From an uncultured Porphyromonadaceae bacterium (GTDB lineage Bacteria > Bacteroidota > Bacteroidia > Bacteroidales > Muribaculaceae): a DNA stretch of 64,000 bases. A program made the position numbers and the translations under genes. The notes beneath the pieces were generated by a model. That model worked only from the letters and a program-made list of their open reading frames with translations. It had not been told where the DNA came from and did no database searches. Location: the NCBI GenBank assembly GCA_947175645.1, contig CAMWNP010000008.1, positions 39,454 to 103,453 on the forward strand, read 5' to 3'. Positions 365-33,128 of the stretch are shown here, piece by piece (the stretch's first letter is position 1; each line of letters starts with the position of its first letter).

Positions 365-385
365 CGGTGACAAACATAATTTATT

Positions 386-460
386 AGGGGTGCTAAGTCA
401 CAGAAGACTGGCTGAGATCATACCCTTATAACCTGATCCGGGTAATACCGGCGTAGTGAA
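386..460 (+). promoter_or_regulatory. TPP (thiamine pyrophosphate) riboswitch
   Basis: The conserved THI-box blocks occur in the right order and spacing: GGGGTGC at 387-393, GGCTGAGA at 410-417, ACCC at 422-425, ACCTGATC at 431-438, GGGTAATACCGGCGTAG at 439-455. It ends about 10 nt before the receptor start codon. In this RNA class, bound TPP lowers expression of the downstream genes. The short distance to the ATG favours control of translation start, and no clear terminator stem lies between aptamer and gene. This riboswitch is the main evidence that the next two genes handle thiamine. Confidence 0.95.
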
Positions 461-469
461 AATAAACAG

Positions 470-2698
470 ATGAAAAAACTTGCATTAGCGGTGACGGCTA
501 TTGCCGTGGCACCGCTGGCGTGGGGTGATGACAATATCCCCGCCGATTCAATGAGTGTGAAACTCACCGATGTGGTGGTAGTAGCAAACCGTGCCGACTA
601 CAAGACCCCGGTAGCATTCTCAACCGTGACAAAGGCTCAGATAGAAAAGAGCAATGATGGTCATGACATCCCGTTTTTACTTGATTATACACCTTCAGTG
701 GTGACCACTTCCGATGCAGGCGCAGGTATAGGCTATTCTTCAATCAGGGTTCGCGGCACCGACGGCTCACGAATTAATGTTACCGCCAACGGTGTGCCCA
801 TCAATAACCCTGAAAGCCACAATGTGTACTGGGTCAACATGCCTGACCTTGCCTCCTCACTCACTGACATACAGATTCAGCGCGGCGTGGGCACATCCAC
901 CAATGGTGCGGGAGCGTTCGGTGCTTCCATAAACATGATTACCGATACTCCTTCAACAGTTCCATACGCCACCGTTTCCGGCAGTTACGGCTCCTACAAC
1001 AGTAATAAGGAGACTTTGCGTGTCGGGACAGGACTGATGGGTGGCCACTGGATGGCCGATGTCAGACTGAGTCATCTCGGCAGCGATGGTTACATTGACC
1101 GTGCCTGGTCAAAACTGTGGAGTTACTTCGGTCAGGTAGCCTACAAGACTGACAATACACTCGTCAGACTGCTGGCTTTCGGCGGAAAGGAACAGACCTA
1201 CATGGCCTGGGACTATGCATCGAAAGAACAGATGGAGGAATACGGACGTCGCTATAATCCGTGCGGCGAATATATTGATAACGCAGGGAATGTGGCATAC
1301 TACCCTGATCAGACAGACAATTACATCCAGCACCACTTTCACCTGCTGCTCACACAGAACCTGTCAGATGCCCTCACTCTCAACGTCGGACTCCATTACA
1401 CAAAGGACGATGGTTACTACAACCAGTATAAAACCAACCGCACTTTGGAAGAATACGGTCTTGAGCCTTACTATATCGATGGAGAAAAAATAAAGAAAAG
1501 TGACCTTGTGCGCCTGAAAAAGAACCGCAACGGGTTCGGAGGAGGTCTGTTCTCCTTCGCATATAATCAGGGAATAGTTCAGGCACAGGCCGGGGGTGCG
1601 ATCAATAATTTCAAGGGAAACCACTTCGGACAGGTGGCATGGGTCAGAAACTACGTCGGAAGCATTGACCCGCTGCAGGAATACTACCGCAATAAAGGTG
1701 AGAAATTCGACGCTAACATCTTCGCCCGTGCAAATGTGGCGGTGTCAAACAATGTCCGGGCGTTCGCTGACCTCCAGTATCGCTACATTACCTACAGTAT
1801 CACCGGACGAAGCGACAACTTTGACTACAACACCGGCGACATGCAACTGCTTGACATTCACCGAACCTATAACTTCTTCAATCCCAAGGTGGGTGTGAAC
1901 TGGCAGATAAACAATGCCAACCGCCTGTTCGCATCCTGGAGTGTAGCCCACAAAGAGCCGGTACGCGACAACTTCACTGACAGCGACATGAAGCATCTTC
2001 CCACAGCCGAACGTCTGTTCGACTACGAGGCGGGCTACAGTTACAACACATCGGTTTTCTCAGCGGGAGTCAACCTTTACTACATGGACTATAAGAACCA
2101 ACTCGTTGCTACCGGAGAATTATCGGACACAGGTAATCCGCTGAGTGTGAACGTGCCTGACAGTTACCGTGCCGGAATAGAGATCCAGACCACACTCCGC
2201 CCCTGCTCATGGTTCAACTGGAACTTCAATACCACACTCTCACGAAACCGCATCAAGAACTTCACCGAGTATATCTACGAAGATGAGTGGACTAACCCTA
2301 TATCATTTGATCTGGGTGATACGCCAATCTCATTCTCTCCCGACGTGACACTGTTCAACTCCTTCAGTTTCACCGTAAAGGGATTCGAGGCAAACCTCAA
2401 CAGCAAATATGTGTCAAAACAGTATCTGAACAATGCCAGAAACAATGAGCAGGCTCTTGACTCTTATTTCGTGACCGATCTGCATCTCGGCTACACCTTC
2501 AGGAATGTTCTCTCAGCGAAGGAAATACGCACCGGTTTCACCATCTATAACATCTTCAACGAGAAATATTGCAGCAACGGTTATGCCGGCGCGGGCTACT
2601 ACGTGAACGATGCCGGAGAAAAAGTCATCTACCGCTACTCCGGCTATGCCGCTCAGGCCCCCACTAACGTGATGGCATCCGTAACTCTCACATTCTAA
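470..2698 (+). CDS. TonB-dependent receptor, probable thiamine transporter
   Basis: 742-residue outer-membrane receptor. Residues 1-19 are a signal peptide ending near AWG. A TonB-box-like segment (TDVVVVANR) follows near residue 33, then a plug domain with SIRVRGTDGSR and DIQIQRGVGT, and a long beta-barrel ending in a terminal phenylalanine (VTLTF). It lacks the N-terminal carboxypeptidase-like domain of SusC proteins, so it is a classical siderophore/vitamin-type receptor. Its substrate is inferred from the TPP riboswitch directly upstream and from pnuT 16 nt downstream; a comparable riboswitch-controlled receptor has been described in Bacteroides. Expected role: TonB-powered import of thiamine or a thiamine precursor across the outer membrane, repressed when TPP is plentiful. 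Confidence 0.88.
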   Translation: MKKLALAVTAIAVAPLAWGDDNIPADSMSVKLTDVVVVANRADYKTPVAFSTVTKAQIEKSNDGHDIPFLLDYTPSVVTTSDAGAGIGYSSIRVRGTDGSRINVTANGVPINNPESHNVYWVNMPDLASSLTDIQIQRGVGTSTNGAGAFGASINMITDTPSTVPYATVSGSYGSYNSNKETLRVGTGLMGGHWMADVRLSHLGSDGYIDRAWSKLWSYFGQVAYKTDNTLVRLLAFGGKEQTYMAWDYASKEQMEEYGRRYNPCGEYIDNAGNVAYYPDQTDNYIQHHFHLLLTQNLSDALTLNVGLHYTKDDGYYNQYKTNRTLEEYGLEPYYIDGEKIKKSDLVRLKKNRNGFGGGLFSFAYNQGIVQAQAGGAINNFKGNHFGQVAWVRNYVGSIDPLQEYYRNKGEKFDANIFARANVAVSNNVRAFADLQYRYITYSITGRSDNFDYNTGDMQLLDIHRTYNFFNPKVGVNWQINNANRLFASWSVAHKEPVRDNFTDSDMKHLPTAERLFDYEAGYSYNTSVFSAGVNLYYMDYKNQLVATGELSDTGNPLSVNVPDSYRAGIEIQTTLRPCSWFNWNFNTTLSRNRIKNFTEYIYEDEWTNPISFDLGDTPISFSPDVTLFNSFSFTVKGFEANLNSKYVSKQYLNNARNNEQALDSYFVTDLHLGYTFRNVLSAKEIRTGFTIYNIFNEKYCSNGYAGAGYYVNDAGEKVIYRYSGYAAQAPTNVMASVTLTF

Positions 2699-22133: not shown

Positions 22134-25100
22134 TTAATTCCTGAGATATACCTTTTCAGCCTTACCTTTACGGATGATTATATATAACCCATTTAAAGCA
22201 GGCATTTCACAGGCGCTGCCATCATAGATTTTCAAACCTTCAAGGGTATAAATCTTTACTATACAATTTTCATCCGTCAGAACGTCTTCAATACCGGATA
22301 AAGAAGCATCCACATTCAGGAATTCCATCCATATGTCAGCCATGCTGTATGACGTGAGCGAACCTTCAGGAATGATCAGTTTACAGGTTTCCTTATTTGT
22401 GGATTCAAAGCATGCTATACCAAGTATCGGGGGCACCGGATTGTGGCTTTCAATCACATTTGGCATACATTCGCAAAATGCATAAGCACATAAGGTTTCC
22501 ACCTCATTTCCGAAAATTATTTTATCAACATTCCTATTTGACAAAGGCAGACACTCAGTTCCGTAACCGAAGTCACCGTCTTTACCGGAGTATTCCTCAA
22601 GATTAATAGCGTTGAAATGCAGGGTAACCGGATTATCTGAGGGGTTTTTCAATCCAAAAGCATCAGCCCGCATTGCTTTAACACCTTTGCCAATTGTTAT
22701 GTCCTCCAGTTGATAACACTCAGCGAAACAACCTTCAGACAATATGGTCACATTGTCAGGAATCACTATTGATTTAATATTCGTTGACTTAAAGATATAT
22801 TGAGGCAGAGTTATGACACTTTCGCCAATTTCAATATCATTAAGTTTCGGGCAATTGGCAAATACCGGATTATCAGCCGCGTTATCATCACATATAGCCT
22901 CAATAGCATTATAATTGACTTTTGTGAGAATAGGACAGTTCGCAAATGCTCCGGCCTGAATATTCCTGATAGTTTCCGGAATAACGACAGACATGAGCAA
23001 TTCAGAGTCTTTGAAAGCCGTATTATCGATAGAAGTAACGGCATATTCAACCCCATCTTTAGTAACAGATGCCGGAATAATTACATCCACCTCATAATCA
23101 GGTTTGAACCCAACGACTCTTGCTTCCTCACCTTCGTATTCGTAAGTCAGCAAGTATTCCTCGCCGGGTAAGCGATAAATATGTTTGAAATTACACCAAG
23201 GGGTCAAGTGCTGCGCTTCCTCACGTACTTCTTCAGCCAAATAAAGCATAGCCTTTTCATAAACCGTATTTTCAAACATATTGTCATAACCTCCAACCGG
23301 ATTGAGGGATTGATAATATATTTCTGTGATTTCCGGACATGAGTGCCATATTGACTCACCGAATGTGCGGACATTGTCACCTATGGTAAGTTTGGTCAGT
23401 TTCCTGCAAGATTCAAAAGCACGGTCCCCAATTTCTGAGACTGAATTAGGAATTGCAACCGATTCCAGATTGCCACAGGAAGCAAATGCTCCGGTTTCAA
23501 TAGTCAGTACGGATTCCGGTAAGATAACAGAGTTGATGCCGGAACCTTCAAAAGCATATTGAGAGATTGAAACAACCTTATATCCAGTGCCTCTGTAGAA
23601 TGCTGTTTCAGGTATGGAAAGGTCACCGTTCAAGTGATGTTGTTTCGCCACTAAGCAAGTGTTTTCATCAATAATTTCATATAAAAGAGTCTGACCGGCG
23701 TATTCATAAACAAACGATGGAATATTTTCAATATTCTCAAACAATTTCCATGGAGTAAGTTTAAGAGCCTCTTCACGTGAAGATTCACGAAGATAAAGTG
23801 TTGCCTGTTTATAGACAGTGTCATCGAAAGAATTACTGTTCATTTCCATTGGTTTGCCTGACGTGTAGTACACGTCCTTGATATTCGGACAGTCTTTCCA
23901 GACCTCAATTCCCCTCATAAAAATCAGATCCCCCCAAAAATACATATCCCCACTGAGATTTATAGTGTTAAGTTCTGTACAGCCCGAGAAAACCCTATCC
24001 CATAGTTCACATGACTTTAATGAAATGTCTTTAAGACTGCTACACCCTTTAAATGCATCAGATTTAATTGAACATTTTGATAATGTCAATGAAGACCCCA
24101 GTGCTTTACAGTTTTCAAAAGCACCACCATCAATAACTTTTAGATTCTCTCCATTACCAAAGGAAACTAAATTAGTGCAATTTTGAAACGCATACATTCC
24201 TATAGTTTGAAGATTATCACAATTTCCTAAAGAAACCAGGTTTGAACAGTTACTAAATGCAAAACGGCCTATAGTTTGCAGATTTACACAGTTGTCTAAA
24301 GAAGCCAAGGATGGGCAATTTAGAAATGCATAACTTCCTATAGTTTGGAGATTATCGCAATTTTCAACCGATGCAAGAGTAGTACAACGATTGAAAGCAG
24401 ATTCGTCAATCAAAGTTATTGATTCACCCAGTTTTACTGAAGTTAGTCCGGTACAATTTTCAAATACCGACTTTGCGATATGTGTCAGAGAGTCAGGAAT
24501 CTGTATTGATGTTAATCCTGAACAATTCTTGAATGCAAGATCTTCAATATTATTGATATGATCCGGAAGCGTGACTGATGTCAATCTGTTACAGTCCTGG
24601 AATGCCGATGGTCCTATTTCCTTGACAGACTCCGGAATATTAAAATCTCCTTCAATATCGGATGTAACAAAATATATTTTTTCCTTATTTGTATCATAGA
24701 TGACCCCATCTTCAATGGTAGAATTAACAGGATAACTAAAACAGAGGCCAAAGTTGAAGGGATTCTTGAGAGTCTCAGGATATGCTGATTTTACTAATGT
24801 GTAGCATTTAGCGAAAGCATCATTACCAACTGAAGTGACAGATTTCGGAATGATAAAGGTTTTTACTCCGGAGCAGCCTTTAAAAGCCTCATTACCGATA
24901 GTAGTTACGGAATTGCCAATACCAATTGATGTAAGACCGGTGCAGCCGGAAAAAGAGCGTTCACCTATCGATATTACTGAATTTGGAATTTCAACGGATG
25001 ACAGTGCGTTGCAACTGTTAAAAGCATTATTACCGATTGTAGTTACAGAATTGCCAATATCAATTGATGTTAGCCCGGTGCAACCGTAGAAGGCATTATC

Positions 25101-27245
25101 ACCGATTGTAATGACAGATTCTGGAATTATTATATTTTTTATACCTGTACAGTCTCGGAAAGCACTGTTTCCGATTAAAGTCACTGATTTTGATAAGGTC
25201 AATGAAGTTAATCCAGTGCAATGTCTGAACTCCCAATCGCTGATTATTGTTACTCCGGATCCGATTACCAACTCTTTAAGGCTTGTCTTGTTACTAAATG
25301 GATAATATTTATGCTTTAGATTTCTGCCTAAGTAAAGATTTTCTATAGGAGAGTCCAAAAATTGTTCACTACCCATGTCCAAAATATCATTACCATCCTC
25401 AATTGTCAGTTTCTTAATCCCTGAACATTCTTGGAACGCTTTGTCGCCTATTGACTTAATATTTTGGGGTATTGTGATTTCACTTAAACCGGAACATCCA
25501 TAGAATGCCTCATAACCAATTGTGGTAACAAAAGGTCCAAATGTTATAGACTGTAGTGATAAAGGTGAGGATATATTCCCATTCCAATCTCGGCCAATAT
25601 ACATAGAATCAATTTTTGTCCCTTGTAATGCGTCTTGACCAAAGTCTATTCGAGTGGTCCCATCATCTATTCGGATTTTGTCCAGTGCCGAACATCCTGA
25701 AAACGCGCATTTACCTATTTTAGAAACTGAGGAAGGAAGTTCAACAGAGGTCAATGCAGAGCAGCCGGAAAAAGCATAATCACTGATAGTAGCGACAGAG
25801 TTACCAATATTAACATAACTGAGTGCAGAGCAATCGGAAAAAGCATAATCATTGATGGAGGTTACATGATCCGGAATTGTGAAAGATGCCAATCCATCGC
25901 ATTTGGCAAAAGCATACTTGCCAATTCTTGTTACTGATGTGGGTAAAGCATAGGTGTCATCAACAGATAATCGCACAAAGTATACAGACTCTTTTTGGGT
26001 ATCATAGACAATACCGTCTTCAATCAGTCCATTGACAGGATACCCGATGCAAAGGCCATTGCCAAAAGGATTTTTAATTGTCTCAGGATACGCATTCTTA
26101 ATCAAATTGGTGCAACCTAAAAAAGCAGATCCATCGCATCCTACTATTGAAGGGGGTAGGATTATCTCTGTAAGACTGGTACATTCGTTGAATGCACGAT
26201 TTTCAATACTCTTTATTGAGTTCCCAAAGGTGATTTCAGATAAATTAGAGCAACCTTCAAATGCTCCATAATTAATATATTGAAGTGAATTGGGAAGAAT
26301 TAATTCAGTAATACCTGAACAGTTTTTAAAAGCATAATTATCAATATTCTTAAGAGACTCAGGAAGAATAATCTGTTTCAGGGCTGTACAGCCTGAAAAA
26401 GCAGATTCCCCAATCTCCATAACTGAATTAGGAATTGTCACAGACTCCAAAGAAGAACAATTATTGAAAACATTTTTTTGTATTGAAGTAACTTTATCCG
26501 GAATTATTATTGAAGTCAGTCCCGAACATTTGTAAAATGCTTTTTCCCCGATTGCAGTCACAGAATTACCAATTTCAATTGATGTCAGTACGGTAAAATC
26601 TGAAAAAGCGCTGGATTGGATATATTGAACAAGATTACCGATTTTTACCGATTTTAAGGTCTTAGCGATGTGGCCAAAATAACCATTCCAAGTACGTCCA
26701 AGATAAATATATTCTATGTTAGTATTTTTAAATACCCATTGTCCAAATTTTAGAAAGGTTTCGCCATCTTCAATTTTTATTTCAGTCAGCCCGGTACAGC
26801 CTGAAAAAGCCTCATCCATGATATCTGTTACCGAATTGGGAATTTCCAGGGATGTCAGCCCGGTACAGTCTGAAAATGCATACTTGCCGATATTAGTTAC
26901 CGAATTGGGAATTTTCAGGGATGTCAGCCCGGTACAGCCTGAAAATGCAGAATTGCCGATTGTTTTTACCGAATTGGGTATTTCTACAGAAGTCAGTTCG
27001 GTACATTCATTAAAAGCCTTTTCATAAATTTCTGTTAATGTGTATTCTGTTCCATTATATTGTGGATATTCAGGAATAACTACTGATTTTACACTTTTAT
27101 TAGCATACCACAGTTTACAAGTCTTTGCCTTACTGTCAACAACCTGATACCATAGTTCTGTACCCTCATATTTATAAGAGAAAAGTTGTGCCGACGCCGT
27201 GTGAAAAAGCAGAAATGTTAATAGTAATAATAGATATTTTTTCAT
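22134..27245 (-). CDS. Giant BspA-like leucine-rich-repeat surface protein
   Basis: 1703 residues. Signal peptide MKKYLLLLLTFLLFHTASA. Almost the whole length is BspA/LRR_5 repeats of about 23 residues with the core xxLTSIEIPNSVTxIGxxAF. Two non-repeat modules interrupt the array; they share IEDG-x-x-YDT-x-KE-x-x-YFV and a KNPF-x-x-GLC segment. The C terminus (SGIEDV, then YTLEGLKIYDG and GLYIIIRKGKAEKVYLR) is a small tail resembling those of other secreted proteins here. BspA-like proteins of oral and gut bacteria bind host matrix proteins or partner bacteria, so adhesion is the likely role. It is visibly AT-richer than the flanking genes and follows a smaller paralogue by 18 nt. Confidence 0.85.
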   Translation of the reverse strand: MKKYLLLLLTFLLFHTASAQLFSYKYEGTELWYQVVDSKAKTCKLWYANKSVKSVVIPEYPQYNGTEYTLTEIYEKAFNECTELTSVEIPNSVKTIGNSAFSGCTGLTSLKIPNSVTNIGKYAFSDCTGLTSLEIPNSVTDIMDEAFSGCTGLTEIKIEDGETFLKFGQWVFKNTNIEYIYLGRTWNGYFGHIAKTLKSVKIGNLVQYIQSSAFSDFTVLTSIEIGNSVTAIGEKAFYKCSGLTSIIIPDKVTSIQKNVFNNCSSLESVTIPNSVMEIGESAFSGCTALKQIILPESLKNIDNYAFKNCSGITELILPNSLQYINYGAFEGCSNLSEITFGNSIKSIENRAFNECTSLTEIILPPSIVGCDGSAFLGCTNLIKNAYPETIKNPFGNGLCIGYPVNGLIEDGIVYDTQKESVYFVRLSVDDTYALPTSVTRIGKYAFAKCDGLASFTIPDHVTSINDYAFSDCSALSYVNIGNSVATISDYAFSGCSALTSVELPSSVSKIGKCAFSGCSALDKIRIDDGTTRIDFGQDALQGTKIDSMYIGRDWNGNISSPLSLQSITFGPFVTTIGYEAFYGCSGLSEITIPQNIKSIGDKAFQECSGIKKLTIEDGNDILDMGSEQFLDSPIENLYLGRNLKHKYYPFSNKTSLKELVIGSGVTIISDWEFRHCTGLTSLTLSKSVTLIGNSAFRDCTGIKNIIIPESVITIGDNAFYGCTGLTSIDIGNSVTTIGNNAFNSCNALSSVEIPNSVISIGERSFSGCTGLTSIGIGNSVTTIGNEAFKGCSGVKTFIIPKSVTSVGNDAFAKCYTLVKSAYPETLKNPFNFGLCFSYPVNSTIEDGVIYDTNKEKIYFVTSDIEGDFNIPESVKEIGPSAFQDCNRLTSVTLPDHINNIEDLAFKNCSGLTSIQIPDSLTHIAKSVFENCTGLTSVKLGESITLIDESAFNRCTTLASVENCDNLQTIGSYAFLNCPSLASLDNCVNLQTIGRFAFSNCSNLVSLGNCDNLQTIGMYAFQNCTNLVSFGNGENLKVIDGGAFENCKALGSSLTLSKCSIKSDAFKGCSSLKDISLKSCELWDRVFSGCTELNTINLSGDMYFWGDLIFMRGIEVWKDCPNIKDVYYTSGKPMEMNSNSFDDTVYKQATLYLRESSREEALKLTPWKLFENIENIPSFVYEYAGQTLLYEIIDENTCLVAKQHHLNGDLSIPETAFYRGTGYKVVSISQYAFEGSGINSVILPESVLTIETGAFASCGNLESVAIPNSVSEIGDRAFESCRKLTKLTIGDNVRTFGESIWHSCPEITEIYYQSLNPVGGYDNMFENTVYEKAMLYLAEEVREEAQHLTPWCNFKHIYRLPGEEYLLTYEYEGEEARVVGFKPDYEVDVIIPASVTKDGVEYAVTSIDNTAFKDSELLMSVVIPETIRNIQAGAFANCPILTKVNYNAIEAICDDNAADNPVFANCPKLNDIEIGESVITLPQYIFKSTNIKSIVIPDNVTILSEGCFAECYQLEDITIGKGVKAMRADAFGLKNPSDNPVTLHFNAINLEEYSGKDGDFGYGTECLPLSNRNVDKIIFGNEVETLCAYAFCECMPNVIESHNPVPPILGIACFESTNKETCKLIIPEGSLTSYSMADIWMEFLNVDASLSGIEDVLTDENCIVKIYTLEGLKIYDGSACEMPALNGLYIIIRKGKAEKVYLRN

Positions 27246-27263
27246 GATGGGGTCATTTTAATA

Positions 27264-29648
27264 TTATCGAATTGCAATCTTTGTTCTTTTACATCCCTGT
27301 GATATGATATAAATGCCCGGCTTGAGCGTCATTTCCGATAAGATGCCGGAATATACTTTTTGTCCTGTCAGGGAATATACTGTCACCGGTGTCAGTTCAT
27401 CAATTACTGCATCAACAGTCACATCCTCAATTCCACTTAAATCATCATTGATCTTGTTAAACTGACGCCAGATATAGGCATAGGAGTAAGCGGTCTTAGA
27501 ACCAACCGGAACAAGCAACTTACATGAGAATTTATTGGCTGATTCAAGACAATAGTCACTCATTGACGGCGGTTCAGGATTATAACTCTCAATAACCGAC
27601 GGCTTACAATCGCGCAGCGTGTATTTAGGACATTTTTCCACATCCTCTCCAAAACGGATAGTGTCAATTGCGCAGTTGGCAAAGGCATCAGAGTAGTTTT
27701 TCATACTTATTGGATTAAAGTTGATGTTACGGTGAACAGGATCTTTTTCAGAAGGTAGAGAAAAAGCATCTGCTTCAATGGTTTCAATTCCTTTACCTAA
27801 AGTTATTTCCTTTATTTTGCCGCTGTTATAAAACGCGTTAACGCCTATGGTGAGCACATTGTCTGAGATGTTAATAATTTCGGCTGTAGTGGAATTGAAC
27901 AGATTAGCCGGAATCTCAGCAACGTCATCACATATATTTATCACTTTCAGATTGACACATTTTGAAAATAACGACGGAGGTACGTCATCCAAGGCTTTTG
28001 CATTATAATCAATTTTCAAAAGATTAGAACAGTCATTAAATGCATCAGGGGCTATTGTGGTTATAGTTTCAGGAATATACAATGATTTGAACATTGCGGA
28101 ACCCTTAAGCGCCTTATCAGAAATTTCTGTCACCGTGAAATTTTTACCATTGATTTTTGTTTCAGCAGGTATCACGAGGTTAACAACACGGTCACTGTTA
28201 AAACCGGTCAATGTAGCCTCCGAGCCGGTGAATTTATATGTAAGGGTGTAGCGAGGTTCAATAGTTCCATTAATATTCTCAAAGGCTCGCCATGGCATCA
28301 TAGATGAAATCCGTTTTTGTATTGATTCATCAACATGAAGTTCGGCGTCTTCATAGTTAGTATCGTCGAATACGCTCATTGAGGCTATCACAGGTTGGGT
28401 TGAAAGGTAATATATATCTTTTATTTTTTCACATCCCTTCCATATATTTTCTCCGAAAGAAGCGATATTGGGACTGATAATTACAGAATTAAGATCTGAA
28501 CAATCTTTAAAAGCCTCAGTGCCTATATACGTAACGGAATTAGGAATTTCAACAGATGTGAATTCTGTGCAGCCTTCAAAAGCAGAGTCATCAATGTTTT
28601 CTACTGAATTGGGAATAGTAAATGAAGTCAGGGCGGAACACCCTTTGAACGCCCCTTTGCCAATCTTCACCACAGAATCGCCTATTTTCACTTCTTTTAG
28701 CGAGGAACAGCCTTCAAATGTGGAGTCATCAATATGCTCCACAGATTCGGGAATTGTAATTGAAGTCAGGGCTGTACACCCTTTGAACGCTCCTTTTCCA
28801 ATTTTCACTATAGAATCGCCGAATCTCACTTCCTTTAGCGAGGAACAACCTTCAAAAGCAAAATCTTCGATGCTTTCTACTGAATTCGGGATGGTTATTG
28901 AGGAAAGAGATTTACACCCTTCAAAGGCCGATTCAGGAATGGATGAAACCTCAGGTATAGTTATGGATTTCAGACCACTACAACCTTTAAACATTGCTTT
29001 GCCTAATCCTGAAAACGTAACATCGGATAAATTGATACAATCCTCAAAAATACCTTCGCCATAATTGGTTCCTGAGGGGAGTGAAATAGAAGGCAACGCA
29101 ATACATCCTTTGAATGCATAATCTCCAATGTAAGTTAGAGAAGGTGGTAATTTTATATCGGTAAGTTTTTGACAATCCTGAAATGCACTGCGTCCAATTA
29201 TATGAAAACCGTCGTTGATAATTATATTAGTTGTGGGACTTCTCTTAAAGAGTTCGTCTGGAATATGGAAGTATAGAACTGATATATAACGGTCCTCATT
29301 AGTAATATAATCCGGAAGTTCAAATGTCACTGCGTGATGTATTATAGAGGCTTGTTTTGATGCAAAATGCAATGAAATATCATCCCCCATAATTAAATCG
29401 CCGCCGACATATTCAAATTTATATTCTGCGTCTTTATAGGAAGGTCCTATTCCTCTCCAGTATGTACATCTTGCATCAAATCCCGAATAGTATCTGACTT
29501 TATCCAGGTACGTAGTTGCCTTAAGCGTATATATCTTTCCCGTTTCATAATCTCCCCTACCTGCTACCAAATACCCATCAGCATGCATGTTTAAAGGCAG
29601 GGTTATTACAAAAATAATAAATAAAATGTTGAATATGTATTTATTCAT
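27264..29648 (-). CDS. BspA-like leucine-rich-repeat surface protein
   Basis: About 794 residues from the ATG at 29648, which starts a good signal peptide (MNKYIFNILFIIFVITLPLNMHA). The longer reading from 29678 adds ten charged residues and hides the signal. Repeats run from about residue 150 to the C-terminal quarter, with near-identical neighbouring units (FEGCSSLKEVRFGDSIVKIG and FEGCSSLKEVKIGDSVVKIG), a sign of recent repeat duplication. The C terminus (SGIEDV, YSLTGQKVYSG, GIYIISQG) closely parallels that of the giant neighbour. Probably an adhesin. It is the first gene of a two-gene unit; no standard promoter was recognised upstream. Confidence 0.82.
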   Translation of the reverse strand: MNKYIFNILFIIFVITLPLNMHADGYLVAGRGDYETGKIYTLKATTYLDKVRYYSGFDARCTYWRGIGPSYKDAEYKFEYVGGDLIMGDDISLHFASKQASIIHHAVTFELPDYITNEDRYISVLYFHIPDELFKRSPTTNIIINDGFHIIGRSAFQDCQKLTDIKLPPSLTYIGDYAFKGCIALPSISLPSGTNYGEGIFEDCINLSDVTFSGLGKAMFKGCSGLKSITIPEVSSIPESAFEGCKSLSSITIPNSVESIEDFAFEGCSSLKEVRFGDSIVKIGKGAFKGCTALTSITIPESVEHIDDSTFEGCSSLKEVKIGDSVVKIGKGAFKGCSALTSFTIPNSVENIDDSAFEGCTEFTSVEIPNSVTYIGTEAFKDCSDLNSVIISPNIASFGENIWKGCEKIKDIYYLSTQPVIASMSVFDDTNYEDAELHVDESIQKRISSMMPWRAFENINGTIEPRYTLTYKFTGSEATLTGFNSDRVVNLVIPAETKINGKNFTVTEISDKALKGSAMFKSLYIPETITTIAPDAFNDCSNLLKIDYNAKALDDVPPSLFSKCVNLKVINICDDVAEIPANLFNSTTAEIINISDNVLTIGVNAFYNSGKIKEITLGKGIETIEADAFSLPSEKDPVHRNINFNPISMKNYSDAFANCAIDTIRFGEDVEKCPKYTLRDCKPSVIESYNPEPPSMSDYCLESANKFSCKLLVPVGSKTAYSYAYIWRQFNKINDDLSGIEDVTVDAVIDELTPVTVYSLTGQKVYSGILSEMTLKPGIYIISQGCKRTKIAIR

Positions 29649-29718
29649 AATCAGTTCTTTGTCATGAAATAATTTCAATATCTTGTGATAACATTAACTA
29701 TTGTGTCACCAATGGTAA

Positions 29719-29741
29719 CATAGAAACTGTAAGTTTCTATG
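29719..29741. terminator. Perfect inverted repeat after the unknown protein gene
   Basis: CATAGAAACT at 29719-29728 and AGTTTCTATG at 29732-29741 are perfect 10-bp arms with a 3-nt loop. It begins 9 nt beyond the stop codon of the unknown gene and about 70 nt before the start of the repeat protein. The T tract is poor, so it could be a terminator, an operator, or the end of a mobile module. Confidence 0.5.
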
Positions 29742-29749
29742 CTTAATAA

Positions 29750-30688
29750 TCACCATCGGTTTCCCTTGGCGGAGTTCTGGCTTCTTTCCATTAGCAAGTA
29801 GAATTCCATTTCATTAATCAGGTCATATTCCTTTTTCAGTTTCCGGGGATTAACGTTTAATCCGTTGATTAAATTTTGGAATTCCGGGAAGCGTCCGGAC
29901 TTAATAATTAATGAAATAGCCGGAGAATGATCTATAGAAATTGATGACAACAGTATTGTGCCATTTGCATCACGGGCAACTTTAAACGGATGTATGCTGC
30001 CGTTTGCATGATAACCGTAAGCCTTGACAAAGGCCCCTTTAGAGTATATCTTCGGCATTACCTCAAGAATGTCACCTTTCCCTACACGCATTTTTTCAAT
30101 GTCAATTACACGATGGGGGCCTTTTTCTGTTAAAACAGATACTTTTTTCAATGCCTGGGTAATCCATGACTCGTCACTGTTTTTGCCTATGAGATCCCCT
30201 AATTTACTGGCGGGCCAATATGTGCTGTTACGAGACGAAATGCGGTTACGCAGATTTAGTTCATCAGGATAAAATTCCTCAGATGCCGTGAGTTCATTGG
30301 AAACTGATGAAGCCAGTCCTTGCATGACCGCCGGAGAAACAGAAATATTATTTTTCCCGGCTACTGATGTAAGGTATTCCTGGAACCTGCGGACTGCTGT
30401 ACAGATGTCGTTTTTATATCCTTCACTGATTTTCCCATCGGCAAAATCATCGCATACATAACGAATCATCAAATTGAATAAATCGTCAAGTAAATCAGGA
30501 CGATTGTGAACTAAGTATTGAAGAGTCCCCAGGTTACTTTCTATCGGAACAAGAATTTTAGATTTCCTATTCCAGATTTTAAAGGATTTACGAAGGCGCG
30601 TCATGTAAGACGCAGTTGAATGGGAAGTTGTGGTTATCCCGTTTTGGATGAGCCATTGCTGGAACATTTCAAGAAGATTGGCGCTCAT
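29750..30688 (-). CDS. Unrecognised protein behind a structured RNA
   Basis: 312 residues from the ATG at 30688 (MSANLLEMFQQWLIQNG). A longer open frame to 30910 exists, but its first 74 codons run through the stem-loops of an RNA gene and are taken as non-coding. The N-terminal half is helical and basic, and the part around DICTAVRRFQEYLTS looks loosely like the core-binding region of tyrosine recombinases. The C-terminal half has RNRISSRNSTYWPASKLGDL and KGPHRVIDIEKMRVGKGD, with no catalytic motif I can name. No signal peptide or membrane helix. No promoter was seen between the RNA terminator and the ATG, so expression may depend on read-through. Function unknown. Confidence 0.6.
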   Translation of the reverse strand: MSANLLEMFQQWLIQNGITTTSHSTASYMTRLRKSFKIWNRKSKILVPIESNLGTLQYLVHNRPDLLDDLFNLMIRYVCDDFADGKISEGYKNDICTAVRRFQEYLTSVAGKNNISVSPAVMQGLASSVSNELTASEEFYPDELNLRNRISSRNSTYWPASKLGDLIGKNSDESWITQALKKVSVLTEKGPHRVIDIEKMRVGKGDILEVMPKIYSKGAFVKAYGYHANGSIHPFKVARDANGTILLSSISIDHSPAISLIIKSGRFPEFQNLINGLNVNPRKLKKEYDLINEMEFYLLMERSQNSAKGNRW

Positions 30689-30744
30689 AACGATAAGTTT
30701 TGCCTTCGGGCTCACAACGTTGGCAATAGTCTGGTTTATAAATG

Positions 30745-31060
30745 AAAAAGCGTGGAGCCGTGCTTGTTGCCCTGTTCCACGTTCTGCGGCCTTCGCATTG
30801 CCGATCCTCAAAGAACAGAGCAACGCAGAAGCCCACGCTATATGTATATCCATGACGAGCCGCGCCCTTTCGCAAGGGTACGGCAAATGCCTATGGGATA
30901 TCCATAGCAATGCGACGTCTACTGTTGCCCGGGTCTGTTAAGGATTCATTGAAAGTTGCGAAGTTTCAGAACATCAGAACCGTAGCGTCAAGTAACGCTT
31001 TCTAAAAAATGTTGCCTGGCGACCTCTGTCGCGGCTTCGGGAGGTATGTGCCTGCCGTCA
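30745..31060 (-). ncRNA. Structured RNA of about 316 nt with own promoter and terminator
   Basis: A strong promoter (31064-31095) starts a transcript near 31060. It ends in a stem AGCGTGG/CCACGCT (plus-strand 30749-30755 with 30833-30839) followed by five T on the minus strand. Inside are a 12-bp helix with one wobble pair (30766-30777 with 30813-30824) and a 7-bp helix (30782-30788 with 30824-30830) that cross each other, a hairpin around CCCTTGCGAAAGGG (about 30864-30877), and several 5' stems. It is not tmRNA, RNase P RNA, SRP RNA or a riboswitch class I recognise. I have an unverified impression that this sequence recurs in other Bacteroidales, where parts are often annotated as small proteins. 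Confidence 0.65.
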
Positions 31061-31063
31061 GTG

Positions 31064-31095
31064 CAAATTTAGAATAATTTTTATTTTCTTCCAAA
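31064..31095 (-). promoter_or_regulatory. Promoter of the structured RNA
   Basis: Minus-strand TTTG (plus 31092-31095), exactly 20 nt, then TAAATTTG (plus 31064-31071). This is one of the best matches to the Bacteroidota promoter in the window and supports an RNA gene here. Confidence 0.75.
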
Positions 31096-31151: not shown

Positions 31152-31168
31152 GGGCTTCTGCGTTGCTC
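31152..31168. repeat. 17-nt inverted copy of part of the structured RNA
   Basis: GGGCTTCTGCGTTGCTC occurs here on the plus strand and once inside the RNA on the minus strand (plus coordinates 30818-30834). A minus-strand -7-like box (TAACTTTG, plus 31172-31179) lies just upstream, so a leftward transcript would carry a perfect antisense to the RNA's helix-forming strands. Confidence 0.7.
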
Positions 31169-31224
31169 CGGCAAAGTTAAATCAAAAAAATCATTGGCGG
31201 TGTGTTCACTTCGTTCATTACATG

Positions 31225-31284: not shown

Positions 31285-31839
31285 ATGTTAAGCGAATGGA
31301 TAAGGAATTTAATTGCCGAGCGCTTTGGACGCGAAGTCAGGTATTCGCAGGAATGTGAGGCTCTTTCGGAGGATATTTTTGAGCGGACGGGGGAGCGTCT
31401 TGGGGTTTCAACGCTCAAACGGATGTTCGGATTCACCGGGGCTGATGTGGCTCCGCGACCGTCTACCATGGATATTATAGCAAAGTACCTGGGTTTTAAC
31501 GGAGGTTATAAGGAACTTGAAGTTGCTTTACGCGATGGCATGATTATTTCGGCGTTTGACACTATTGATACGGTTGACACTGCCAATCTACAAGCCGGCA
31601 CGCGTGTGGTTGTATGCTATAGCCCTAACCGCCGCATCGTTATGTCGTACATGGGTGACGGTCAATTCCGGATTGTTGAGGCTGTAAACAGCAAACTTAT
31701 GGCCGGCGATACGTTGAGGGTTGAAAACCTAACCGTGGGTTTTGAGTTTTATGCCTTGGATGTAATACGTGACGGAAAGAGCCTCGGCGCTTATCGCGCG
31801 GCTAAAAACGGCGGAATTGCATCAATCGATATTCTTTAG
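31285..31839 (+). CDS. Small HTH-like regulatory protein
   Basis: 184 residues from the ATG at 31285; an upstream TTG at 31261 would overlap the -7 box. The N-terminal 70 residues (LSEDIFERTGERLGVSTLKR, then FGFTG and PSTMDIIAKYLGF) look like a compact helical DNA-binding domain seen in small Bacteroidales regulators. The C-terminal half (AGTRVVVCYSPNRRIVMSYM, ending GGIASIDIL) is a beta-rich domain I do not recognise. No signal peptide or membrane segment, so probably cytoplasmic. It overlaps the end of the convergent kinase-like gene by 4 nt, and the pair may work together; a kinase that modifies this protein is possible but unproven. Confidence 0.6.
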   Translation: MLSEWIRNLIAERFGREVRYSQECEALSEDIFERTGERLGVSTLKRMFGFTGADVAPRPSTMDIIAKYLGFNGGYKELEVALRDGMIISAFDTIDTVDTANLQAGTRVVVCYSPNRRIVMSYMGDGQFRIVEAVNSKLMAGDTLRVENLTVGFEFYALDVIRDGKSLGAYRAAKNGGIASIDIL

Positions 31840-33128
31840 CCCCGGTTCCCGCGTGCTCGCCATTCATTGGAAACCATGCGTTTGATGCTGTCACTGTAAT
31901 GCATATATTTCCTCCAGGCATCAGACTCCCACACCAGTTTGGCTCCGACGGCTTGATTTGTGGTGTTATTGGCTTTAGCGACAGCGGTGTAAAGGTCACC
32001 GAAACAATCCTTCTCAGTATCATGATACAACTGCAGTGAACGGTATATGTCATCGGCAGTCAGCGTTGTGTCAGCAATCGTGCTTTCAAGGCTGTTGAGT
32101 TCACTGTATAGGAGGATGAACATTCCGGCAGTCATCGACTCCACATCAACCTTTGTGTTAATTTGTTGGTGTTTGATTTCAGTAGCGGACGTATATTCCT
32201 GTATAGCAACCGGTTTTTCGTCGGTAGCCGATGTGTCGGCAGCCACAATCAGTTGTTTCTCCTCCAATCCGTCAGTTTCTTTATGCTCATTTGATTTGTT
32301 GAAATAAAACCACAAGCCACCGCCTATTGCCAAAAACGTGAGAAGTGCCGGAATGGCCAAAAGAGTTTTTTGCGACCTATTCCTGCCGATGATTTCCATC
32401 AGGTCGTCAGCAGTAACGCCGTCAACAAAACAACGGTTGCGTAACTTGGCTAATCCGCTGAATTTAAGGTCATTGGCAATCAGGGTTTCGATAATTTTAC
32501 CGATGCCGTGGAAATCAATGTCAGTATTGCCACGTTTATCAGCCGCCACGCCGTACAGTGCCGGGGACCCCGAGGTATCATCAAGCCATGATGTGTAGGA
32601 TTTATCAAAGTCAATAAGCATCAGATTGAATGTTCCGTCGGTCAGGATGATGTTGTCAGGCTTGATGTCGCAGTGGACAACGTTGTGGCGATGCAGATAG
32701 CCCGTTACGTCAATGAGTTCCTTTAGCATGCGCCTCAGATTTCCGGGATGGCTAAGCCAACGGCGAGCAGCCGATGCCGGAGTTTCGGCATTGATTTCGC
32801 TTTTCATGGCTTCGGATAATGTTACACCATCGATAAAATCCATCACAATGTAATCATCATGAAATTCCCTGTACCGGGGCAATGACTTATGCTGCAATTC
32901 CACCCCTAAGTCAAATTCCTTGTCAAAGGCTGCACTATACACCGTGTTTGCGCGGAATTCTTTTTTTAGCCGCTTTACAAATACCCGCCGGCGGTGGAGG
33001 CGAGTGACAAAGACATCGCACGTCGACCCCTCGCGTTCAAGCCGTTGCGCTGCGCCAAAGTCTATCGGTCCATCATCAATGATTGATTGGGATTCAAAGC
33101 CTGAAATTTTGTCATCATCTGCCGCCAT
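31836..33128 (-). CDS. Membrane-anchored Ser/Thr kinase-like protein
   Basis: 430 residues. The kinase domain fills about residues 30-245: lysine at VFVKRLK (K52), hinge YIVMDFIDG, catalytic loop HCDIKPDN (152-159), a DFD instead of DFG (173-175), and DFHGIGKII in the place of the usual DxxSxG helix. The glycine-rich loop is degenerate (REGSTCDVF), yet the catalytic Asp, Asn and metal-binding Asp remain, so activity is plausible. One membrane helix (about 255-276, LLAIPALLTFLAIGGGLWFY) separates it from a 150-residue helical C-terminal part with no PASTA repeats. The promoter ends almost exactly at the ATG, so the message may have no leader. Confidence 0.8.
   Translation of the reverse strand: MAADDDKISGFESQSIIDDGPIDFGAAQRLEREGSTCDVFVTRLHRRRVFVKRLKKEFRANTVYSAAFDKEFDLGVELQHKSLPRYREFHDDYIVMDFIDGVTLSEAMKSEINAETPASAARRWLSHPGNLRRMLKELIDVTGYLHRHNVVHCDIKPDNIILTDGTFNLMLIDFDKSYTSWLDDTSGSPALYGVAADKRGNTDIDFHGIGKIIETLIANDLKFSGLAKLRNRCFVDGVTADDLMEIIGRNRSQKTLLAIPALLTFLAIGGGLWFYFNKSNEHKETDGLEEKQLIVAADTSATDEKPVAIQEYTSATEIKHQQINTKVDVESMTAGMFILLYSELNSLESTIADTTLTADDIYRSLQLYHDTEKDCFGDLYTAVAKANNTTNQAVGAKLVWESDAWRKYMHYSDSIKRMVSNEWRARGNRG

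Follow-up and report, generated by a model that had tools for sequence, protein, structure and literature searches.

The window analysed here, a 64-kb stretch of DNA from an uncultured Porphyromonadaceae bacterium, carries on its minus strand an RNA of ~316 nt that, judging from sequence comparison, is one copy of a large folded RNA family in Bacteroidales, often present in several copies per genome. This RNA probably defines a new class of leader in that order, acting in cis and carrying a conditional terminator. Comparison of the copies demonstrates its architecture, the long-range helices X, B and W, a terminator followed by a T-tract, a position ahead of genes, and a scarcity of promoter boxes in the gap between terminator and gene. 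That termination is conditional we infer, because the strands of a hairpin near its 5' end (P1) and of the outer stem of the terminator can swap partners and because, in some of the copies, the RNA begins with a stretch complementary to the terminator's 5' arm.

Layout of the copy in the window

The elements on the minus strand of the window follow one another in the order promoter, ~316-nt RNA, hairpin and T-tract, 56 nt, 312-aa ORF, and 10-bp hairpin. This is the layout that a first-pass annotation had described; the layout held, and two of its distances, 57 nt from RNA to gene and 9 nt from gene to inverted repeat, are corrected to 56 and 8 nt. The features of this copy, in order of transcription, are as follows.

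31172–31179, minus: putative distal promoter box TAACTTTG, recognised by sequence
31152–31169, minus: anti-T element P0 (GGAGCAACGCAGAAGCCC), 18 nt, complementary to the 5' arm of the terminator hairpin with one G-U pair
31064–31095, minus: proximal promoter, read from the sequence, with −33 TTTG at 31095–31092, a 20-nt spacer and TAAATTTG at 31071–31064
30745–31060, minus: leader RNA, ~316 nt, from the presumed proximal start to the T-tract
30985–30998, minus: P1 hairpin, GCGT...ACGC, near-invariant, a possible strand-exchange partner of the terminator
30967–30974, minus: 5' strand of helix X, partner 30779–30786, from the family pairing test
30957–30963, minus: 5' strand of helix B, CTTCGCA, partner 30791–30797
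30938–30945, minus: 5' strand of helix W, ATCCTTAA, partner 30804–30811
30840–30904, minus: variable middle hairpin, sequence not conserved
30750–30838, minus: terminator hairpin, with W', B' and X' in its loop
30838–30834 / 30754–30750, minus: terminator outer stem, GCGTG/CACGC; inner stem at 30823–30813 / 30777–30767
30745–30749, minus: T-tract, TTTTT
30709–30713, minus: post-terminator element f (GAGCC), able to pair with GGCTC at 30759–30755 (5 bp here, by eye; tested at the family level)
29750–30688, minus: 312-aa gene with stop codon, no known family, one among many genes found behind the RNA
29719–29741, minus: perfect 10-bp hairpin with a 3-nt loop, 8 nt past the gene stop, no T-tract

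The textbook promoter claimed in the first-pass annotation is present as TTTG, 20 nt and TAAATTTG, which we take to be a promoter of the Bacteroidetes type. Exact TAnnTTTG boxes end 173, 93 and 65 nt ahead of the conserved core; the box at 93 nt is the proximal −33 region. The terminator is linked to the upstream region by a perfect inverted repeat of 17 bp (30818–30834 / 31152–31168), which the first-pass annotation had not mentioned; its upstream arm lies directly behind the second promoter box, TAACTTTG. Folding of the window RNA gave −121.9 kcal/mol against a mean of −95.8 kcal/mol for shuffled sequences (sd 4.8, z −5.4), with none of 100 shuffles folding as well, which bears out the earlier description of a structured RNA of 316 nt. 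The terminator was called from the family comparison; a simple terminator scan restricted to loops of 3–8 nt does not list it because its loop far exceeds that range. The perfect 10-bp inverted repeat behind the gene was confirmed; the window has three perfect hairpins this long or longer (loops of 3–8 nt), of which it is one.

Behind the 312-aa gene, and in the same orientation, lie two long genes that by eye encode BspA-like leucine-rich repeats (22134–29678). On the other side, beyond the RNA, lie a 184-aa gene with no Pfam match and a Ser/Thr-kinase-like gene (31285–33128). By eye, similar-looking proteins of 183–184 aa occur upstream of the RNA at loci L008 and L009, and kinase-like ones at L012 and L013.

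Searches for known RNA families left the leader without an assignment. Rfam 15 at gathering threshold, run over the whole window, gave no match at the RNA, its sole match being a distant TPP riboswitch (376–477, plus strand, 67.7 bits). At E values up to 10 the window region gave three matches, all far under their thresholds, and at E values up to 1 the 11 related loci gave a tRNA in L022 and two sub-threshold matches, none of them within the RNA. ARAGORN found no tRNA or tmRNA in the 64 kb. As no score at the RNA reached a gathering threshold, a known Rfam family for the leader was rejected, and the clear match to a housekeeping RNA that the first-pass annotation had listed as counting against it did not appear in the Rfam searches.

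Distribution and fold of the RNA family

A blastn search with a 445-base query matched 45 of 119 relatives (the source genome counted), mainly in two blocks, and a covariance model of the 3' block of the RNA was built from 30 of the sequences found in this way. The source genome has nine matches to this model, two of which are both strands of one site, leaving about eight copies, two of them weak; one match lies in the window, the ORF of one copy starts 276 nt away, and one weak copy is followed by just a 56-aa ORF. Within the same family the model matched 108 of 119 genomes, covering 25 of 26 genera, with up to 18 matches per genome, per-genome numbers that include some opposite-strand mirror matches. 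Across the order it matched 44 of 295 genomes (27 of 178 genera), five of the 44 belonging to the window's own family, and in a sample of the phylum 2 of 345, namely the source genome and one other of the same order; these large searches used stricter filters, at which weak matches are lost. The suggestion that the RNA recurs in other Bacteroidales is thus upheld.

Scanning named genomes with an 18-base pattern yielded at least 116 stretches (loci L102–L217); among the matches listed, L155 alone had no block by nhmmer. The carriers among these listed matches are mostly Bacteroidales metagenome-assembled genomes, many from animal guts, and include records titled as strains: Segatella copri iA622, Palleniella muris NM73_A23 and Bacteroides sp. 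GM023. The few carrier records titled as other phyla are presumably labels of mixed bins. With one copy (L015) as query, PLSDB plasmids gave no match and a phage search gave a single match of 75% identity over 51% of the query length, in an unannotated phage record. The 18-base pattern was found in one contig of a viral collection, L218, where the RNA stands ahead of a BREX BrxP-like gene. A piece of the terminator arm of ~30 nt (blastn query 329–361) also occurs alone: several genera have matches confined to that span, at 88% identity (for example G019:C3:71780, G023:C15:123833 and G039:C6:34511).

After removal of identical sequences, 216 matches left 187 distinct copies. These were gathered with model R1 and the 18-base pattern, so strong matches are over-represented and the sequences from which R1 was made match by construction. 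The conserved 5' core is present in 180 of the 187. Each of six source-genome copies is closer to some copy elsewhere than to the other five, in a comparison with far more candidates elsewhere, and nothing suggests a recent burst of copies in that genome.

The core segments X, B and W have their pairing partners, X', B' and W', inside the loop of the terminator hairpin. For helix X, 1373 of 1412 cells were paired (97.2%), compared with 63.9% when copies were given mismatched partners, and all five inner pairs were found as AT, TA, GC and CG. Helix B was paired in 1250 of 1258 cells (90.5% with mismatched partners), helix H2 in 85.5% (78.0%) and the inner stem of the terminator in 98.1% (94.9%), while the outer stem was paired in 772 of 772 cells of the profile alignment. 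Helix W appeared weak in the fixed register of the alignment (42.8% versus 37.0%) because of length differences between copies; a test that allows shifts was used instead, in which at least 6 bp formed in 93% of 180 copies as opposed to 17% with mismatched partners. In a separate alignment of 65 sequences, hand-chosen from the first 120 of 146 non-redundant copies, 91.4% of positions were paired, compared with 78.9% after shuffling (sd 0.4) and at most 44.4% after sliding, and the covariation score was 0.418, compared with 0.177 and at most 0.099. The outer stem reached 66.7% in this alignment because the aligner split its GGCGTGG and GCGTGAG forms into different columns. Since the copies share descent, P values are not to be taken literally and the mismatched-partner control is the fairer one. 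Across the 187 distinct copies, compensatory change is strong in the long-range helices X, B and W. The consensus also carries GCAAC(A)GGTA in both the 5' core and the 3' block, as if one factor bound it twice.

Terminator, read-through and the genes behind the RNA

Directly after the outer stem, the first 8 nt hold a mean of 6.5 T, compared with 1.9 further on (165 copies), and at least 5 T are present in 158 of 165, which backs the hairpin and T-tract terminator first proposed from the window alone. A conserved terminator hairpin and U-tract stand between promoter and gene, as in an attenuator leader. In 141 of 167 copies (20 of the 187 were left out as having less than 600 nt downstream), an ORF of at least 100 aa on the same strand begins no more than 250 nt past the terminator block, 81 of them at 50–79 nt; at random places such ORFs were found in 1050 of 2257 cases, with no peak at 50–79 nt. 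Of the remaining 26 copies, 18 have an ORF of 37–99 aa starting within 170 nt, an uncontrolled count, and in 8 of the 167 no ORF was found after the RNA.

Promoter boxes lie ahead of the RNA and are rare behind it. In 166 of 173 copies a box occurs in the 260 nt ahead of the core; the corresponding counts are 20 of 164 for a control stretch and 42 of 173 for the opposite strand. The gap from terminator to ORF contains an exact box in 2 of 131 cases, in keeping with the earlier remark that the 312-aa gene seems to lack a promoter of its own. Because boxes are rare in the gap and common upstream of the core, read-through is the simplest route to expression, and the genes behind the RNA seem to depend on it. 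The element f that follows the terminator can pair with the 3' arm of the hairpin, by at least 6 bp in 78% of 161 copies versus 48% with mismatched partners. It is transcribed after the termination decision, so it can act only following read-through, and a pure attenuator does not explain it.

The genes themselves appear to be of many kinds, to share no pathway, and to encode a predicted excess of exported proteins. The 150 downstream proteins match 68 Pfam families; among the best 25 of these the BspA-type leucine-rich repeat is commonest (12 members), followed by BACON, DUF3575, WG repeats and DNA methylases with 2–5 each, and these 25 include neither a reverse transcriptase nor an RNA-guided nuclease (TnpB, IscB, Cas). 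Among the best 25 of 88 PADLOC families are type III methylases, with 2 members, and, in L218, a BREX BrxP-like protein. Under a crude rule for signal peptides, 81 of 146 downstream proteins (ORFs of at least 100 aa) look exported, compared with 63 of 263 genes upstream of the RNAs (ORFs of at least 150 aa). At two loci (L181:1325–2137 and L006:5055–5912) the downstream proteins seem, by eye, to join a helical domain to a PD-(D/E)XK-like and to an HNH-like nuclease; neither has a match above the Pfam threshold.

Of 298 genomes of the family, 8 have a homolog of the 312-aa protein, as does 1 of 393 of the order, the source genome itself. The RNA lies directly upstream in three of the eight (the window, G039 and G133) and was not found there in five, one of which has the gene behind a tRNA-like stretch and another behind a transposase-like stretch, by eye. 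Two of the homologs lacking the RNA, L221 and L222, have in common a short upstream stretch with TTAACTTTTATTA. As the first-pass annotation had said, the protein belongs to no recognised family: Pfam, NCBIfam and PHROGs gave nothing significant, nor did PDB sequences (best E 0.46) or a Foldseek search with the predicted structure (best E 0.14; mean pLDDT 61.4, good in the N-terminal helical part only). Neither a reverse transcriptase nor an RNA-guided nuclease was matched, and the N-terminus has a sub-threshold resemblance to an integrase SAM-like domain (E 0.32).

A candidate switch among leader RNAs

Pairing at the 5' end of the transcript offers a candidate partner for the terminator. P0 scored at least 24 there in 59 of 162 copies, compared with 11% for mismatched partners and 1 of 162 in a control region upstream of the promoter; the other 103 copies scored under 24. 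A first test over a narrow upstream region was weak (77% versus 75% with at least 6 bp), and the signal for this predicted pairing is clear once the search region is the transcript 5' end. The window's score of 45.5 is the highest among 172 copies.

The strands of P1 and of the outer stem could also exchange, as examined in the 105 of 180 copies that have all required columns. RRRRGCGU, the core purine run with GCGT, can form at least 7 bp with ACGCUUUU, the ACGC of the terminator with its U-tract, in 74 of the 105 (31 fall under 7 bp), and the ACGC of the 3' strand of P1 can pair with the GCGU of the terminator 5' arm in 104 of 104. The columns of P1 and of the outer stem are near-invariant, at 0–0.44 bits with one at 0.92, compared with 1.3–1.9 bits, close to random, in X. 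This invariance fits two partners for each strand, though it does not prove them: such helices have no covariation of their own, and protein binding would explain the invariance equally well. With a pseudoknot-free program, the X/B/W fold of the window RNA is 12 kcal/mol better than a forced terminator fold; for the distal transcript the best fold is at −155.5 kcal/mol, with P0 forced at −147.9 (7.6 worse) and the terminator forced at −144.1 (11.4 worse). Because X, B and W cross H2 and the inner stem, they may coexist with these as one pseudoknot instead of being alternatives, a choice that pseudoknot-free folding cannot decide.

On our preferred reading, transcription in the commonest layout would start ~60 nt ahead of the conserved core and pass the pseudoknotted domain (P1, H2, X, B and W) to an intrinsic terminator ~60 nt before the start codon, and the regulated gene would be expressed solely upon read-through by RNA polymerase. 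Exchange between P1 and the outer stem of the terminator would pair RRRRGCGU with ACGCUUUU and ACGC with GCGU. In the window copy P0 lies between two promoter boxes, and would be carried by the distal transcript and absent from the proximal one, so that promoter choice could set whether a terminated 316-nt RNA is made or the gene is expressed. A broader version we advance only tentatively: that this is an order-wide, so far undescribed RNA switch of gut Bacteroidales in which one common signal makes an upstream hairpin and the terminator exchange strands and so controls many accessory proteins, exported ones among them, in a set that shifts over time or lineage, with some copies adding promoter-coupled antitermination by an antiterminator at the 5' end of the distal transcript only.

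Other readings account for parts of these observations. A single fixed pseudoknotted fold could act on translation or stability of the read-through mRNA, for instance as a protein-binding 5' UTR behind a constitutive but leaky terminator; all the helices can be drawn together as one pseudoknot and element f is present solely in read-through RNA, yet exchangeable, near-invariant strands and a purine run facing the U-tract would then want another reason, and we judge this rather unlikely. It is quite unlikely that the RNA ends at the terminator as a stand-alone non-coding RNA, trans-acting or a scaffold, with the genes behind it incidental. A strong conserved terminator, a complex conserved core and the variety of downstream genes would suit such an RNA; the peak of ORF starts at 50–79 nt past the block, the few promoter boxes in the gap and the pairing of element f with the terminator arm speak against it.

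More remote are two readings suggested by the window itself. The 17-bp repeat is perfect and flanks a promoter, and invertible promoters are known in Bacteroidales; an invertible promoter segment bounded by it is nevertheless very improbable, given that elsewhere P0 fits the terminator arm of its own copy more closely than the arms of the rest and is located at the 5' end of the transcript, behind a promoter box, as expected of RNA pairing. The first-pass annotation had tied the RNA to the 312-aa protein as one functional system, retron-like, RNA-guided or transposon-linked. Their adjacency in the window and two other genomes and the integrase-like resemblance of the N-terminus favour this, but five of the eight homolog genomes have no RNA ahead of the gene, the protein has no significant PHROG or PDB match, and the downstream families considered above include no enzyme of the retron or RNA-guided kind. 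Copies elsewhere have no consistent downstream gene, an outcome that the annotation had itself named as telling against its reading. The pairing was rejected on the homolog genomes, mostly lacking the RNA upstream (3 of 8 with it), and we regard such a system as barely credible; of the earlier account the observed layout stands, while the link to the protein and the retron, RNA-guided and transposon interpretations are not borne out.

The conditional leader that we favour resembles riboswitches and protein-controlled attenuators in its 5' leader position, its intrinsic terminator before the start codon and its possible alternative partner strands, and, like second-messenger riboswitches, it occurs in several copies per genome. 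It differs in having no Rfam match, a large pseudoknotted core, possible partners for both arms of the terminator, and genes with no shared pathway, whereas most riboswitch regulons share one. Leader RNAs with terminators are a known kind, within which we rate this one, for all its unusual architecture, as a new class; in our judgement new RNA classes this large and this covarying are uncommon.

Comparative genomics has already given structured RNAs of Bacteroidetes, among them Bacteroidales-1, Bacteroides-1 and Bacteroid-trp (Weinberg, 2010; PMC2864571). The table of that paper gives Rfam accessions for these three, which as Rfam families have no match to the leader RNA, and none for Bacteroides-2, which falls outside the Rfam comparison. 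Candidate structured RNAs of 27–219 bp from the human microbiome include palindromic ones of 80–132 bp, mostly or only from Bacteroidetes, three of four being predicted terminators (Fremin and Bhatt, 2021; PMC8040213); going by the main-text description, none of these has the full architecture of the leader, and the supplement may hold a fragment of it. A search of the open literature outside supplements, three conserved strings included, found no description of this RNA.

The RNA fronts many kinds of gene, including those for surface proteins, lipoproteins and restriction-modification, in gut bacteria known chiefly from metagenomes, and its carriers include titled strains in which it can be tested directly. 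If it is a true switch, its signal would reveal a regulon for which our literature search gave no description.
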